Below are positions 1,306-15,691 of a DNA stretch of 42,333 nt, piece by piece. Source of the DNA: Candidatus Omnitrophota bacterium (lineage in GTDB: Bacteria > Omnitrophota > Gorgyraeia > Gygaellales > Profunditerraquicolaceae); the NCBI GenBank assembly GCA_016208765.1, contig JACQXK010000060.1, forward strand, positions 1-42,333, read 5' to 3'. The position numbers and the translations under genes are program-made. Positions within the stretch are counted from its first letter, which is position 1. The number at the start of each line of letters is the position of its first letter. The notes under the pieces are model-generated. The model did no database searches, was not told where the DNA came from, and saw nothing but the letters and a program-made list of their open reading frames with translations.

Positions 1306-1721
1306 ACCGCTTCTTCCTTTTGCGTTGCGGGCGCGACCTCTACGGGTTTATCTTCTGCAAGAATAGGCGCGCCGGTATTGATAAGATGTTCTATGGTTCG
1401 TATGAGCTTAGTTGTGTTTTGGCCGCGATACTGCACGGCTCTATCGTCTATGAAAACGTGATATATCGGCTTCTGCGATGTGTCCGGCGGATTGTGCTTA
1501 CAGGAGTTTATGCTGTCGTAGGGGACATTGTTACGGATTAGGTATGCCTTTAATGCCGGTGTAACTTTCCGGGTGGTCCAGATGATGATATGATAGCCTT
1601 TAGCCTTAAGTTGCTTCATTGCATCGATGACGTCCCAGTTAGGTTTCTCAAAAACATCTACTCCTTTCCATATTTCGTAATGCGCGATGACCCCGTCAAA
1701 ATCAAAAGCTATGACCTTCAT
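1293..1721 (-). CDS. HAD-superfamily phosphatase
   Basis: This 142-aa protein has the HAD motif I DFDGVIA at residues 7-13 (nucleophile Asp7, acid/base Asp9), motif II Thr in IIWTTRK near residue 48, and the acidic motif VFIDDRA near residue 92. It probably hydrolyses a phosphate from a nucleotide or nucleic-acid end, as the phage deoxyribonucleotidase or polynucleotide 3'-phosphatase relatives do. The start ATG at 1721 follows GGAGG and overlaps the stop of the reverse transcriptase gene as ATGA, so the two are translationally coupled. A role linked to the retroelement is only a possibility; such HAD genes are common in phages. Confidence 0.75.
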   Translation of the reverse strand: MKVIAFDFDGVIAHYEIWKGVDVFEKPNWDVIDAMKQLKAKGYHIIIWTTRKVTPALKAYLIRNNVPYDSINSCKHNPPDTSQKPIYHVFIDDRAVQYRGQNTTKLIRTIEHLINTGAPILAEDKPVEVAPATQKEEAVCPG

Positions 1722-2812
1722 GCAACCTCCATTGTTAATTTGTTGATTAGTCGGTAACTGTTGGCGTGTTTGAAATGACCCATATATGACGCGACCATAT
1801 CGTGAAATTTCCTAAAGTCCTTTTCCCGCGCCTGGCGGAACTGCCGGATCTTCTCTTTAAGGTTATTTATTACCCTCCGCCGGACCAGAACGTATGTCGG
1901 TCGGATGATGTAGCCTAAGAAGTCTATGCCGTTTGAGATAGACGCAAGTTTACGGCGTTTCGGGTGAAGGCGTAGCTTGAGCCTACTTAAGAGGAATTCT
2001 TCAATCTGAGCCTGCCAAGTGCGTAATTGCGAGGCATCTTGGGAGAGTATGACAAAATCGTCTACATAACGCAGATAGTAGTGTGCCTTAAGGACGTGCT
2101 TAACGTATTGGTCGAGTTCATTCAGGTAGATATTGGCGAAGTATTGGCTCGTTAAGTTGCCTATCGGCAGGCCGCTTCGGTTTTCTTTGCCAAAGAGGCT
2201 TTTGTTCGTGGGGATGTTAAAGAGAAGCTGCTTGTCTCCTTTGTGAACGTAGGACGTGGTGCAGTCCCAAAAAAGAACCTTCTGCGTAAGCCAGAGGATG
2301 TCCGGGTTCTTTACCTTGCGCTGAATTATTATAAACAATAATTCCTTGTTTATGCTGGTAAAGAAGTCCTTGATATCCAGTTGGAGATAGTAGGCGCGGA
2401 CGTGGCCGTTCTTGGTGATCTGCCGGGTAAATTTCTCCAAACGTTCTTTGGCCGCGTGCGTACCCTTTCCATCCCGGCTTGCGTAGGAGTCATGAATAAA
2501 GATTGGCTCATAGATTTTCTCTAAAGAGTTTACAAGGATGTGATGTACTACGCGGTCGGGAAAATCTGCGGCGAATATCTCCCGTAGTTTTGGTTTCTTG
2601 GCGGCAAAAAGAATTGAGCGCGAAGGGTGGTAAGTCCTATTTTTTAATTCATATTCGAGTTTAACTAAATTCTCTCCGTCGTTTATCTCGAATTTAAGCG
2701 CGTTAAAAGTATTGCGCTTGTTCTTCCGACAATCAAGATAAGCTTGGTATATTTTTCTAAAAGAGAATATATCGTTTTGTAAGCCATTGGCTGGCTCGGA
2801 CTGGCCGCACAT
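1718..2812 (-). CDS. Diversity-generating retroelement reverse transcriptase
   Basis: This 364-aa reverse transcriptase copies the template-repeat RNA with adenine errors. It shows the palm motif DIKDFF (near residue 145), then GLPIGNLTSQYFAN, whose IGxxxSQ form is typical of DGR enzymes rather than group II intron or retron enzymes (QGxxxSP), and the catalytic YLRYVDD box. The ATG at 2812 lies inside the template repeat, so the first codons are encoded by TR sequence; no better in-frame start follows. Upstream lie TR, Avd and two target genes. There is no maturase or endonuclease domain. The stop overlaps the HAD gene start. Confidence 0.95.
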   Translation of the reverse strand: MCGQSEPANGLQNDIFSFRKIYQAYLDCRKNKRNTFNALKFEINDGENLVKLEYELKNRTYHPSRSILFAAKKPKLREIFAADFPDRVVHHILVNSLEKIYEPIFIHDSYASRDGKGTHAAKERLEKFTRQITKNGHVRAYYLQLDIKDFFTSINKELLFIIIQRKVKNPDILWLTQKVLFWDCTTSYVHKGDKQLLFNIPTNKSLFGKENRSGLPIGNLTSQYFANIYLNELDQYVKHVLKAHYYLRYVDDFVILSQDASQLRTWQAQIEEFLLSRLKLRLHPKRRKLASISNGIDFLGYIIRPTYVLVRRRVINNLKEKIRQFRQAREKDFRKFHDMVASYMGHFKHANSYRLINKLTMEVA

Positions 2813-2896
2813 AATATTTGTTGTCCTTATTGTTGTAGTTCACGTTGCCGTTGTCATAATTCACTATCCGGACGTTGCTCCTATTCCAGGCAACCT
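2788..2896 (-). repeat. DGR template repeat (TR)
   Basis: This 109-bp segment matches VR1 and VR2 in the two target genes. Read on the minus strand it is packed with AAC/AAT codons (translating as WNRSNVRIVNYDNGN and onward), the usual design that allows adenine mutagenesis to sample many residues. It is not itself the end of a target gene: past the last shared bases it reads CAATGG where the VRs have the stop CAGTGA. Its last 25 sense bases overlap the start of the reverse transcriptase. Confidence 0.93.
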
Positions 2897-3030
2897 TTAC
2901 TTACACACTTATCGTCTCCCCGGGGAGACCCTCAGGAGCAGATCCGTTAGGTACCGCTCCTTGTGTTCTTATGCCGTTTAAGGTGGCGTAAGCGCCCAGT
3001 GAGTTACAAAATCGCACACTTCCTCAAGGT
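2897..3030 (-). ncRNA. DGR RNA leader/spacer between avd and TR
   Basis: This stretch between the avd stop and TR has no convincing ORF. On the minus strand it contains a perfect 16-bp palindrome at 2914-2929 (GTCTCCCC/GGGGAGAC), 18 bases before TR. By analogy with characterised DGRs, structured RNA flanking TR is needed for cDNA priming, so this is probably part of the functional template RNA. That role is inference from position and the hairpin. Confidence 0.5.
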
Positions 3031-3387
3031 TTACCGCTTGGGGAATTCTGACTCTTCCTTCCACCCTTCGCACTGTTTTAATACCTCAATTACTAACTTA
3101 GTTGAAACTTCAAAACTCTTAAACGAATTAAAAGCTTTGGCTTCTTTTGCGAGGTTTAAGATTATTTTGAGTTCTTCCAGTTTATCTATAGACTTACCGA
3201 GTAATTCTATCCTTAGCCGTCTGGTATTAGCCTTGGCTATGAGGACGAGAATTTCCCGTGCAAGCTTTCTAATGTCTGCTCCGAGGTTATACTTGTTATA
3301 TCTGTCGAAATGCCGGACTATTTCCTCAAAGTAGGTTGCCATGTCCTTAGCTTTTTTATAAACTTTAAGATCTTCGTAAAAACTCAT
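3031..3387 (-). CDS. avd: Avd-like DGR accessory protein (four-helix bundle)
   Basis: This 118-aa, all-helical, Lys-rich protein begins MSFYEDLKVYKKAKDMA, the typical opening of four-helix-bundle proteins of the S23/Avd family. In DGRs, Avd forms a basic pentameric barrel that binds the reverse transcriptase and template RNA. The helices carry many basic residues (RKLAREI, NTRRLRIELLGK), consistent with RNA binding. It lies between target gene 1 and TR, the normal position for avd. Start ATG 3387 has a GAGGT ribosome site. S23-type helical-bundle proteins also occur inside 23S rRNA genes, but the context here decides for Avd. Confidence 0.88.
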   Translation of the reverse strand: MSFYEDLKVYKKAKDMATYFEEIVRHFDRYNKYNLGADIRKLAREILVLIAKANTRRLRIELLGKSIDKLEELKIILNLAKEAKAFNSFKSFEVSTKLVIEVLKQCEGWKEESEFPKR

Positions 3388-3401
3388 CTTAATTACCTCG
3401 C

Positions 3402-3429
3402 TTAAAAATTGTCAAAACGTCTAATTCAC
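3402..3429 (-). repeat. 28-bp flank identical downstream of both VRs
   Basis: Bases 3402-3429 are identical to 3965-3992, just beyond the stop codons of the two target genes (core GTCAAAACGTCTAATTCA). TR lacks this flank. The copies show that the two target 3' ends arose by duplication and that the duplicated unit extends past the VR. Confidence 0.9.
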
Positions 3430-3947
3430 TGGCTGGCTCGGACTGGCCGCACATAATACTTGCTGTCCTTATTGCTGTAGTTCACGTTGCCGTTGCCATA
3501 ATACACTACCCGGACGAAGCTCCTACCCCCGGCAACCTCTTCGTTCGTCCAGTAGCCGGCTTCCTTTGTGTCCTTAAAGATGGACATATCAATCTGGGGG
3601 CCGGTGGGGTTATTCTTCACTAAAGAGAACCCTTGTACTGGTGATGGTAAAACCCAACCCTTATGACCGGCAAAGCTGAGTTCTGCGCAGGCTATCTTGA
3701 ACTCTTCCCAGGGCATACGCTCTTTGAAGTGGTTGGGCAGATCTGTGTGTGGAAGTTTAACGATGTAGATATTGTGCCAAGTGTCGAATACTGTGCCGTC
3801 TTTGTTGTCAATGTACCGCGGCTCCGGAAAATCCTTAACCCTGATAATCTTTACATTCTGCGCTGACAGCTTTGCAAAGATGTCCTTTGACGCTCCTTCC
3901 AGGTCAATACGGTCTTTTAAGATGTTTAATACTTGAGTTTGTTTCAT
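3426..3947 (-). CDS. DGR target protein 1 (DUF1566/Lcl-type variable protein)
   Basis: This 173-aa protein starts at ATG 3947 after AAGGAGGAAG. Residues about 45-125 (DNKDGTVFDT, MPWEEFKIAC, AGHKGWVLPSP) match the DUF1566/Lcl C-type-lectin-like scaffold that DGRs often use. The C-terminus from about residue 137 (VAGGRSFVRVVYYGNGNVNY onward) is VR1 and would form the variable ligand-binding face. No signal peptide is visible, so the protein may be cytoplasmic or exported or displayed in some other way, for example on a virion. It ends in RPVRASQ exactly at the TR/VR boundary. VR1 keeps an open frame with no stops. Confidence 0.88.
   Translation of the reverse strand: MKQTQVLNILKDRIDLEGASKDIFAKLSAQNVKIIRVKDFPEPRYIDNKDGTVFDTWHNIYIVKLPHTDLPNHFKERMPWEEFKIACAELSFAGHKGWVLPSPVQGFSLVKNNPTGPQIDMSIFKDTKEAGYWTNEEVAGGRSFVRVVYYGNGNVNYSNKDSKYYVRPVRASQ
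3430..3538 (-). repeat. DGR variable repeat 1 (VR1)
   Basis: Aligned base for base with TR (offset 642, no gaps), VR1 differs at 11 of 109 positions. Ten are at template adenines in the sense direction (seven A to G, three A to T) and one is a T to G near the upstream end. The changes alter codons for Asn/Ile/Asp to Gly, Phe, Val, Tyr, Gly, Ser and Ser. The last 27 sense bases are unchanged, as expected for the homing end. Confidence 0.93.
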
Positions 3948-3992
3948 GCCCCTTCCTCCTTAAATTAAAAATTGTCAAAACGTCTAATTCAC

Positions 3993-4103
3993 TGGCTGGC
4001 TCGGACTGGCCGCACATAACATTCGTCGTCCCTTATTGCCGTAGAACACGCTGCCGCCGTCATAATTCACCTCCCCGAACGCTGCCCCTAACCCCGGCAA
4101 CCT
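3993..4103 (-). repeat. DGR variable repeat 2 (VR2), two bases longer than TR
   Basis: VR2 matches TR over 111 bases with many differences, most at template adenines (for example AAC to AGC, GGC, TTC and GAC codons). Two single-base insertions sit in G-runs, one near 4068-4075 and one near 4031. A few changes are not at adenines, including a C to T and the same T to G seen in VR1. The insertions shift the frame by two. Confidence 0.88.
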
Positions 4104-4383
4104 CAGTCTTGGTTGCGTAGTAATCATCCGTTTTGGTATCGGAAAATATCGGGAATAAACATGGATCGCCTTCAAAGTTAATAATTGCTGCGGCTTCGGC
4201 AGCGGTTGGTTCTTCTCCTCCGAGCTTGGCGCAGAATTCCTTTCTTCCCTCTTCGTTTAATATCTCCTCCGAGCTTGGCCCATAGTCCTTTCCTTGAAGA
4301 TGATCCTTTATCCAGCCATCCGGAAGTTTCTTAAACCTGTTTGGATCAGTTAATACGCTTACCGCAACCGCTTGTTTCTCCAT
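4060..4383 (-). CDS. DGR target protein 2, frameshifted in its variable region
   Basis: ATG 4383 has a strong AAGGAGGAG ribosome site. The 107-aa product (MEKQAVAVSVLTDPNRF...) shares with target 1 an approach segment (DYYATKTEVAG versus YWTNEEVAG) before the variable region. It then stops early at TGA (4060-4062), because VR2 has two extra G bases relative to TR. Without them the frame would run to 3989 and end in YVRPVRASQ like target 1. The N-terminal part is otherwise unlike target 1. Either a homing accident or a sequence error is possible. The ATG at 4440 used by a longer frame lacks a ribosome site. Confidence 0.75.
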   Translation of the reverse strand: MEKQAVAVSVLTDPNRFKKLPDGWIKDHLQGKDYGPSSEEILNEEGRKEFCAKLGGEEPTAAEAAAIINFEGDPCLFPIFSDTKTDDYYATKTEVAGVRGSVRGGEL

Positions 4384-4397
4384 GTGTCTCCTCCTTG

Positions 4398-4541
4398 TTA
4401 AAAAGTTACGCAGGTGTTTGCCAAGGCGTAGGCTAACCAAAGCAACCCCCTGCGTATGTCCCCTGTGATTAAATAGACTATGCCTGCGCCTATACAGGCC
4501 ACAATTACCAGAAGCGGAAATATCCTTTCTCTTGTTATCAT
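4398..4541 (-). CDS. Small membrane protein, 47 aa
   Basis: This short frame starts at ATG 4541 and overlaps the stop of the SWIM-type gene as ATGA, which implies translational coupling. The product (MITRERIFPLLVIVACIGAG onward) has a hydrophobic segment at about residues 8-25 and a second weaker one at 31-41, so it is probably an inner-membrane protein. It lies just before target gene 2. Size, membrane segment and block context would fit a holin-like or other phage membrane peptide, but I do not recognise a family. Confidence 0.6.
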   Translation of the reverse strand: MITRERIFPLLVIVACIGAGIVYLITGDIRRGLLWLAYALANTCVTF

Positions 4542-4837
4542 GCGTATGCGAATGTCCTTTGACTTTCCGTAGTAACCGGCGTGTTGCGCGAGATAAAAAT
4601 ACGCACGGCTTCTATATGGCTACAATACTTATTTTTGTGAAACCCCTGACAGTTGCATCTGTAAGTATCATCCGGGAGCTTTTGAATTGTGTAAGTGTGG
4701 ATGTTATAACCTAAAATAGGTTTACATATCCACGCATTATCTCCGTTCTGCTCAATACAACCACGCTCTAAAAACTTATTCGCTTTATCGTTCATCCTTT
4801 GCCGTGACTCCGAAGTTAAAAAAGCCTGCTCTTTCAC
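4538..4837 (-). CDS. SWIM zinc-finger protein
   Basis: This 99-aa protein starts at GTG 4837 behind a strong AAAGGAGGT site. Residues about 58-80 read YRCNCQGFHKNKYCSHIEAV, the CXCX(n)CXH pattern of a SWIM zinc finger. SWIM domains bind DNA or proteins and occur in helicases, MULE transposases and Sws1-type recombination proteins. Here it is almost the whole protein. The role in this phage-like block is unknown. It is translationally coupled to the 47-aa membrane protein downstream. Confidence 0.7.
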   Translation of the reverse strand: MKEQAFLTSESRQRMNDKANKFLERGCIEQNGDNAWICKPILGYNIHTYTIQKLPDDTYRCNCQGFHKNKYCSHIEAVRIFISRNTPVTTESQRTFAYA

Positions 4838-5378: not shown

Positions 5379-6122
5379 TTAAAGACCGTAAACTTGGTAA
5401 AATATCTTTCTGTCTTTGATAAAATACTTGAAGTAGGTGTCTACATCCCTCTCCACGATCGGCTTGCTGAAACCGCATTTGTTGGTTGGGTTAAGAGGGA
5501 TAATCACTACCTGCTTTACCTCTTCATACCCTTTACATTTTGCGTATGCCGACATCTGCTTCTTGAACTTCCAGACCTTATGCTCCGGGTAATTCTTGCA
5601 GGCTTTAAAGTCTGCGATGGCAGGTTCATCTTTATATAAACACGACCAGTCAATATGACCGTGATATCGGAACTGCTCATTGAAGCAAGCTTCGTCGTTG
5701 AAATCGACTTTCCAAGGTTTGAAGTCTTTGCCGTATTTATCCAAGAACCCTACGAAATTGCAATCCGCCCAATTTAGTTTAAGTTCGCCCAAGGCGAGCG
5801 TTTTAAAATCCAAGAGCATACGCGCCATTTCCTCTCGTGTGCGGGGTATCTTGAGAAGGTTGCGCTCCCAAATTCCGGTGCGAAGAAAGTATTTACTCTG
5901 CGCGTCTACTATGGATCCGCGAGCTGCGTATTGCCTGAGCTTATGTTCCGGGAAGTTAATAGGGTATATGGCCGATAAGACGGATGTTACTGAGGGGAAT
6001 TTCTTACCTTCTTTTTCAACTACCCGCGCGTCTTTTGGCAACGGAAGATATTTCCTGGTTTCTTTGGTTAACTTCGCCTCTACAGGTTTGCGTCCGTTAA
6101 TATTATTGTTATTTGGCTTCAA
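5379..6122 (-). CDS. PD-(D/E)XK-family nuclease
   Basis: This 247-aa protein starts at TTG 6122 behind AAAAGGGG. VTSVLSAIYP near residue 43 is the conserved opening found in phage Cas4/RecB-like exonucleases. YHGHIDWSCLY near residue 154 and AIADFKACK near residue 169 supply the metal and catalytic residues (D...DXK). A Gln/Tyr element (KKQMSAYAKCKG) follows, as in RecB-type nucleases. It would digest or process DNA ends during phage-like recombination. No iron-sulphur cysteine cluster is evident. Confidence 0.78.
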   Translation of the reverse strand: MKPNNNNINGRKPVEAKLTKETRKYLPLPKDARVVEKEGKKFPSVTSVLSAIYPINFPEHKLRQYAARGSIVDAQSKYFLRTGIWERNLLKIPRTREEMARMLLDFKTLALGELKLNWADCNFVGFLDKYGKDFKPWKVDFNDEACFNEQFRYHGHIDWSCLYKDEPAIADFKACKNYPEHKVWKFKKQMSAYAKCKGYEEVKQVVIIPLNPTNKCGFSKPIVERDVDTYFKYFIKDRKIFYQVYGL

Positions 6123-6149: not shown

Positions 6150-6653
6150 TTATTGCTTAAATTTAAAAAATGTATGCTTTCCTATTTTTACGGTTCTAAC
6201 CATAGAACGCGCCCACTTGGGCATACCATAAGTTTCAACCGCTTCATAGTGAGTCGCTCCGCGCGTAATATCTGGCGCACTCTGTTCAAATACTTTCTTA
6301 ACAATATCCTTTGCAATAAGCTCAGCCGACCGTCCCTCTCTTCTGACAAATTCATCCAGCCTTCTCCTTTTTAATGCCATAAGTCCTGTGTTCATTCCCA
6401 TATTAAGACGATTGCGAACACAGCAGGCCACGGCATACATACCTTGATAACCACCAGACACATCCTCTGCAATTAAACCTTTCCATAGATTAGTTGGATA
6501 AGATAATTCTGCCCGCGCAGGTTGAACATTACAGGAAAGACAAACAATACAGATGATTAATAAAACTATTGAAACTATTACAATTCCTATTAGCCTGTTC
6601 TGCTTGCGTTCTTGTGCCAAACGTTCAGCAATTCCAATGAATGTATTCTCCAC
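6150..6653 (-). CDS. SleB-like cell-wall hydrolase, membrane anchored
   Basis: I choose the GTG at 6653 because AGGAGG lies six bases before it; the longer frame from 6692 reads through a terminator-like hairpin. The 167-aa product has a membrane segment (about residues 20-41, LIGIVIVSIVLLIICIVCL), then a domain with NLWKGLIAEDVSGGYQGM, YAVACCVRNRL and, near the end, GATHYEA...PKWARSM...IGKHTFFKF. That pattern resembles the SleB/Hydrolase_2 family, which cleaves peptidoglycan glycan strands. In this block it could serve as a lysin. The conserved early Glu (IAED) is present. Confidence 0.65.
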   Translation of the reverse strand: MENTFIGIAERLAQERKQNRLIGIVIVSIVLLIICIVCLSCNVQPARAELSYPTNLWKGLIAEDVSGGYQGMYAVACCVRNRLNMGMNTGLMALKRRRLDEFVRREGRSAELIAKDIVKKVFEQSAPDITRGATHYEAVETYGMPKWARSMVRTVKIGKHTFFKFKQ

Positions 6654-6668
6654 CTTAACCCTCCTAAC

Positions 6669-6775
6669 AAAAAAGCCCCAGTTGCCCGGCAAGGCATAAA
6701 AAGTCCGCAGATCTTCGCTAAAAGAACTGCGGACTTAACTGGGGTATTGTTAGTAAATTGATTATCCTTGCCGGG
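6669..6775 (-). promoter_or_regulatory. Structured leader with overlapping terminator and anti-stem
   Basis: Read on the minus strand, three inverted pairs occur: B 6766-6775 with 6685-6694, A 6737-6744 with 6676-6683, and C 6727-6736 with 6701-6710. Stem A encloses C and ends in six T, directly before AGGAGG and the GTG start at 6653. Stem B crosses stem A, so B is either a competing antiterminator or half of a pseudoknot. A short leader frame begins at ATG 6784 with an AAGGA site and runs through it. A repeated GTAATG/CATTAC motif lies at 6798-6823. Confidence 0.55.
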
Positions 6776-15165: not shown

Positions 15166-15691
15166 TTATTCTCCGCGAAATTTAATCAATGAATAAACTG
15201 GAAATTCTTTAAGCTTCTCTTTGCCCTTAAGATCAACAAGCTCAATCAAGAAAGCAATGCCTACAATTTTACCGCCAAGCTGCTTGACTAAATCAGCAGC
15301 AGCCCTGACCGTCCCGCCGGTAGCCAAAAGATCTCAAAACCCTATCATTTGGCTTTATGGCGTCGTGATGCATCTCTAATGTGTCTGTGCCGTATTCCAA
15401 ATCATAAGTTACAGAATTTGTCTTAAAAGGGAGTTTCTTTGGCTTACGCACAGGAACGAAACCTGCTCCGATTTTATGAGCAATGGCCCCTCCAAATATA
15501 AAACCCCTTGCTTCAACTGCCACCACCTTATCAATTTTTTTATTCTTATATTTCTCCGCCATTACATCAAGCGCATGTTTAAATGCAGTTTTATTTTGAA
15601 GCAAAGTTGTAACATCTCTGAATAAAATACCGGGCTTTGGAAAATCAGGTATACTTCTGATGTGTTTTTCAAAATCAAATTTATTTTTCAT
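15166..15691 (-). pseudogene. apt: Adenine phosphoribosyltransferase, disrupted
   Basis: The N-terminal frame ([20 protein letters not shown] ... [16 protein letters not shown] ... KPNDRVL) is a normal APRT start. It would make adenine and PRPP into AMP and PPi. After KPNDRVL the frame breaks and stops at 15293. The rest ([20 protein letters not shown], to TAA at 15166) is intact in another frame. Compared with the family's [17 protein letters not shown] loop, about eight bases (coding IVD) are missing. Either a real inactivation or an assembly error. The gene follows the sigma factor by two bases. Confidence 0.85.

Follow-up and report, generated by a model that had tools for sequence, protein, structure and literature searches.

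A diversity-generating retroelement with two small early-gene targets in an Omnitrophota prophage

What does a phage diversify when its diversity-generating retroelement (DGR) sits among early genes? The DGR of Bordetella phage BPP-1 combines a reverse transcriptase (RT), the accessory protein Avd and the logic of a template repeat (TR) and a variable repeat (VR), and its one target is a tail-fibre protein (Mtd) with a C-type-lectin fold. The cassette described here instead has two small early genes as targets, T1 and T2. It lies in a window of 42,333 nucleotides, contig C38 (JACQXK010000060.1) of a genome of 2.41 Mb that is 95% complete. The original prediction, made from the sequence by itself, placed a complete five-part DGR at 2788-4383. 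The parts are all there, but this interval omits the RT; the cassette spans 1718-4383 on the minus strand, on which its parts are collinear as proposed, in the order T2 (4383-3989), T1 (3947-3426), Avd (3387-3031), TR (2896-2780) and RT (2812-1718).

The cassette is part of a prophage fragment (prophage A) at the end of the contig. Phage genes, all on the minus strand and cut by the contig end, occupy 1-6.7 kb, and chromosomal genes begin at about 7 kb. Along the minus strand, the order is endolysin-like hydrolase, exonuclease, zinc-finger-like open reading frame, SWIM protein, T2, T1, Avd, TR, RT, phosphatase and replication initiator, and the neighbours of the cassette are early and replication genes. 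Specifically, a SWIM zinc-finger protein (4538-4837; PF04434, 9e-4; 91% identical in the related phage G098) and a HAD-like or polynucleotide-kinase-like phosphatase (1293-1721; phrog_1238, 8e-24; 95% identical in G098 and 78% in a second relative, G111) are conserved beside it. The same block encodes a phage replication initiation protein (475-1305; phrog_9474, 1.6e-27; 91% identical in G098), an exonuclease-like protein (5379-6122; phrog_298, 3e-9; 82% identical in G098) and, as the last phage gene before the chromosome, an endolysin-like membrane-anchored hydrolase with a hydrophobic segment (6150-6692; phrog_938, 4.9e-9; 71% identical in G111). These PHROG-matched genes bear out the suggestion that the block is phage-like.

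The suggested Omnitrophota origin also holds, because the host PPDK, a housekeeping protein, is 80% and 76% identical to that of two named Omnitrophota metagenome-assembled genomes (MAGs), both of which bear the same cassette with RTs 76% and 64% identical to this one. The genome that contains the window has no further DGR RT, with prophage A truncated by the contig end. An RT on contig C16 was rejected as such a candidate, its best match being the defence RT group UG21, and an extra Lcl_C gene on contig C48 was rejected as a VR of the C38 TR.

The RT gene (1718-2812) encodes 364 amino acids with both expected motifs of a DGR-type enzyme, IGNLTSQ and YVDD, and matches RVT_1 (4.5e-22) and phrog_1423 ‘Reverse transcriptase’ (1.5e-113). 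By sequence, its closest PDB entry is 8ub7 (1e-41; runner-up 9e-16), which we take to be one of the BPP-1 bRT structures. The first ATG of the open reading frame falls within the TR, and thus the true RT start may be later. Avd (3031-3387) is a four-helix bundle of 118 amino acids, in agreement with the helical bundle proposed from sequence, and matches phrog_3206 ‘Avd protein of DGR’ at 3.2e-20, with further matches to NF033474 DivGenRetAVD (7e-10, below the cut-off) and bAvd (1.2e-9, just below the cut-off). The non-coding, adenine-rich TR (2780-2896) is a 117-nt repeat of the two VRs that lies between Avd and RT and overlaps the RT 5′ end. Its reported richness in AAC and AAT codons is confirmed, with these making up 9 of its 38 codons.

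Comparison of the repeats was carried out over a core of 99 nt, 34 of them A in the TR. VR1 (core 3439-3537), which runs to the T1 stop codon, carries 11 substitutions relative to TR, 10 of them at A (Fisher p 7e-5), so that it does differ almost only at template adenines, as had been predicted. VR2 (core 4002-4102) carries 18 substitutions, 15 at A (Fisher p 3e-6), together with two single-G insertions. At the 3′ end, a conserved block is followed by CCAATGG in the TR but by CCAGTGA in both VRs (the IMH/IMH* comparison); RNA folds predicted downstream of VR1 and VR2 gave nothing to rely on. An exact pattern scan of viral contigs yielded no other VRs of the C38 TR. The same bias pervades the relatives, where 17 TR-VR pairs from nine loci were pooled: 237 of 248 substitutions fall at TR adenines, although A occupies only 550 of 1784 sites (31%). 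This pattern is strong, if indirect, evidence for the DGR reading. In a separate observation, both VRs of the Omnitrophota MAG UBA6210 are assembly gaps (NN) and its TR is intact. Gaps confined to the VRs are as expected if reads disagree there, and repeats alone could give the same gaps.

Judged by its sequence, the cassette is a genuine DGR, and we consider it very probable that it is an intact-looking element of a temperate Omnitrophota phage, acting by mutagenic retrohoming on the small early genes T1 and T2. In such a mechanism, the TR would be transcribed, and RT with Avd would copy the TR RNA to cDNA while misincorporating opposite adenines. In both T1 and T2, the cDNA would then take the place of the 3′-terminal VR, randomising residues of the C-type-lectin-fold domain and leaving the TR unchanged. 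That gene duplication without retrohoming produced the likeness between TR and VRs is extremely improbable: T1 and T2 are indeed homologous genes, but no target gene contains the TR, and changes concentrate at TR adenines in every phage tested.

T1 (3426-3947) encodes 173 amino acids with a C-terminal Lcl_C domain of C-type-lectin fold (PF07603, 1.6e-15). Its AlphaFold model has a mean pLDDT of 83.6 and finds as top PDB fold match 8q4e, the Lcl C-terminal domain from Legionella (2.7e-4). T2 (3989-4383), of about 130 amino acids, belongs to the same family. Both predicted target genes thus have their VR, but T2 is not intact in the assembly: its upstream frame stops at 4060, and the conserved C terminus ...YVRPVRASQ sits in another frame, because of the two +1 G insertions inside VR2. 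Homologues of T2 in three relatives (L017, L019 and L031) are open frames. The insertions and the three non-adenine substitutions of VR2 suggest age, error or assembly noise, and the frame defect might be replaced by a fresh round of retrohoming from the in-frame TR.

These defects could also be taken to mean that the cassette is a decaying remnant, with T2 reduced to a pseudogene and retrohoming at an end, and the related gene T3, described below, is likewise broken by a 49-nt deletion. We regard this as quite unlikely given that the frames of RT, Avd and T1 are open over their full length, that VR1 has a single non-adenine change and that intact versions exist in relatives. We infer that retrohoming may be active at present.

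The gene order SWIM-T2-T1-Avd of C38 differs from that of L017 and L031, in which T1 precedes SWIM, and in C38 the sequences that flank T1 and T2 on the 3′ side are almost the same. Recombination therefore appears to have relocated T1.

A third VR raises the question of whether the DGR reaches beyond its own prophage. Contig C62 of the same genome is chromosomal to about 29.9 kb and then enters an integrated prophage (prophage B) with integrase, repressor, capsid and tail genes; the notion that C62 and C38 represent one prophage is not supported, as the close relative G098 is without the C62 structural genes. T3 lies on C62 at 43.6-43.9 kb, and its VR3 (C62:43815-43913) shows 11 differences from the C38 TR, 10 at A, but at least seven non-A mismatches to every other TR tested. 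Neither an RT nor a TR was found on C62, and no RT match was found in nine related virus records. This pattern is consistent with a target in trans, such that the DGR of prophage A would rewrite a gene that resides in a different prophage within the cell. However, the 145 nt 5′ of VR3 are identical to T2, so that part of the pattern is explained by recent DNA-level exchange or chimeric assembly, T3 is frameshifted by its deletion, which lies between 16-nt repeats, and the contig stops before the end of prophage B. Rewriting in trans is thus somewhat unlikely in our estimation, although trans rewriting, recent recombination and chimeric assembly are all possible origins of VR3. Changes shared by VR1 and VR3 were dropped as proof of recombination, because many identical changes are also common to two VRs of one relative (L024). 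In Treponema denticola, some DGR targets likewise lie at a distance from the core cassette, and one remote VR matches the TR of another DGR type (PMC4891356); those remote targets are without phage-gene association, whereas the stray target here is in a second prophage.

The search of other genomes for the same cassette, as proposed originally, was successful. RT relatives comprise fourteen virus contigs and two Omnitrophota MAGs, mostly metagenomic sequences, with RTs that are mostly 58-85% identical (41% in L030). The two-target layout is repeated, with two VRs in 8 of the 9 loci of the pooled count. In a phylum sample of 285 genomes, 7 have an RT match at E <= 1e-60; of these, only two, one being the genome of the window, reach at least 65% identity. 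Searches of viral contigs with T1 as query confirmed no relative, and those with T2 gave two loci, both already among the relatives; neither protein matched deposited phages.

The closest relatives reveal a further feature. G111 (JAPLLY010000054.1, from an Omnitrophota MAG) and G098 (IMGVR_UViG_3300029286_003689) share T1, T2, Avd, TR, RT, phosphatase and replication genes with C38, with RTs 76% and 85% identical, respectively; their order is T1-SWIM-T2-Avd, unlike that of C38, and their T2 is intact. Both also bear a second DGR on an Mtd-like tail fibre. In G111, a genome of 38,274 bp that is apparently circular because its ends are identical over 141 nt, the second DGR is 15 kb from the early cassette. 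It targets a tail fibre in which an Mtd domain was recognised (PF21916, 2e-18), its TR and VR differ at 15 sites, all of them A, and its RT is 36% identical to the first. The second DGR of G098 has 13 of 13 changes at A. A third phage, G357 (43,607 bp, with termini that repeat over at least 100 nt), carries one early target and a second DGR homologous to those of G111 and G098, with changes at A in 14 of 14 cases in the early VR and 17 of 18 in the tail VR. G111 and G357 are apparently circular, complete phage genomes. The virion genes of G098 match those of two other relatives (G100 and G107), not those of G111, and the pair of an early and a tail-fibre DGR is common to three phages with different virion modules.

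Among 50,697 deposited phages, tblastn with either RT matched 152 and 161 records, each with exactly one place, and no record had two RT places at the sensitivity used. In 27 further records with the second RT type, many of them fragments, two RTs occur only in G357. The open-access literature searched, the coverage of which is incomplete, yielded no account of a phage with two DGRs.

Several features distinguish T1 and T2 from an Mtd-type target. They are small and lie beside replication genes, and the Mtd domain was found only in the second DGR of the relatives. Pfam and PHROG-type profile matches gave no tail domain in either protein, and hydropathy gave no hydrophobic, membrane or export signals; the target in L029 differs in having a hydrophobic segment. 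We infer that T1 and T2 are both small early products of the phage and are not exported. Their ligand is probably something other than a cell-surface receptor, because in the closest relatives an Mtd-like tail fibre has a DGR of its own, and a non-receptor role is the simplest reading where the tail fibre is already served in this way. By extension, and only tentatively, these phages may hold two independent DGRs for two jobs, one for the Mtd-like tail fibre and the other for early non-virion proteins that would bind something inside the host cell, such as a defence or regulatory factor.

It is also possible, with similarly limited confidence, that T1 and T2 are virion proteins that decorate the capsid or tail and present a variable lectin domain on the particle, in which case nothing but the position of their genes would be out of the ordinary. 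In G100 and G107, a non-variable Lcl_C paralogue of T2 is the immediate neighbour of the major capsid gene. Some members of the family may thus be virion proteins, and the case that T1 and T2 are not among them is weaker for it. (These remote Lcl_C genes were rejected as further VRs, being without TR similarity.) In clades 1, 4 and 6, the majority of viral DGR targets with an annotation are tail proteins (PMC8144416), and a Hoc-like capsid decoration is a DGR target in Faecalibacterium phages (PMC5883640). Such a role is harder to reconcile with the finding that T1 and T2 are 73-79% identical between G098 and G111, whose virion genes are unrelated (G098-Y podovirus-like, G111 siphovirus-like), and that G357, which has a third virion module, also encodes T1. 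Their position next to replication genes and the separate tail-fibre DGR likewise favour early, non-virion proteins.

The layout with two small targets is itself not new. Shewanella phage vB_Sb_QDWS (OK094664.1) has, like C38, two small targets (118 and 156 amino acids), an Avd-like gene, a TR and an RT on one strand in an early region, and both of its VRs differ from the TR at A only (11 of 11 and 15 of 15). Its DGR neighbours are a cytosine methylase, a host nuclease inhibitor and an integrase; the RT is only 40% identical, the host belongs to another phylum and the record has one RT place. Burkholderia phage Magia (MT701587.1) resembles C38 in having a short lectin-fold target, Avd and RT beside recombination genes, a likeness drawn from gene content; its RT is 39% identical, and the record shows a single RT place. 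The published description of this phage includes a potential DGR whose short targets are genes 47 and 57 (PMC7883833).

The C38 cassette is thus a DGR of known kind in a little-studied phylum, of interest for its early targets and for the relatives with two DGRs. Unusually, it targets two small early-gene proteins rather than a tail fibre, which the closest relatives diversify with a second DGR. Phage DGRs are usually explained as host-range machines. The early-gene DGR is unlikely to share this purpose, because the closest relatives already bear a tail-fibre DGR. The ligand of small lectin-fold phage DGR targets thereby becomes a testable question, for which the cultured Shewanella phage QDWS and Burkholderia phage Magia have the same kind of cassette.

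The Mtd-like tail-fibre DGR and the window-type DGR co-occur on one phage in three relatives, with the second, tail-fibre system located at L048:9677-12576 in the G111 phage (contig C43), L042:1281-5250 in G098 and L122:9329-13195 in G357. A conserved ORF of 103-104 amino acids overlaps the end of the second-DGR reverse transcriptase, and may encode an accessory protein of this system. Two records sharing G098 virion genes, G100 (L049, 15138-15617) and G107 (L053, 12199-12609), each carry a non-variable, T2-like Lcl_C gene that directly adjoins the major capsid gene. At the 15-kb DGR locus of the Omnitrophota MAG UBA6210 (L032), NN scaffold gaps interrupt both VRs (4264-4265 and 6346-6347), whereas the TR is intact; two further NN gaps lie away from the VRs.

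Within the window's own genome (G000), the second prophage carries a third VR-bearing gene, T3 (C62:43592-43929; L037/L038); neither a reverse transcriptase nor a TR was found on its contig. Relative to the window TR, 10 of 11 changes in the T3 VR fall at TR adenines. Loss of 49 nt at a 16-nt repeat has broken the gene, and its neighbour is an Imm5-like gene. Small contig C16 holds a DNA methyltransferase together with a defence-type reverse transcriptase (L039, 379-1398; best PADLOC match RT_UG21, 1e-72).

Outside the DGR, an adenine phosphoribosyltransferase-like gene (window 15293-15691) has an apparent frameshift close to its C-terminus. Giant ORFs at the ends of the window contig (37254-42332) and C62 (7-9906) share the segment GSTDYSFTDPRLKELNSYSTE, probably reflecting a large, repeated gene family at which the assembly breaks off.
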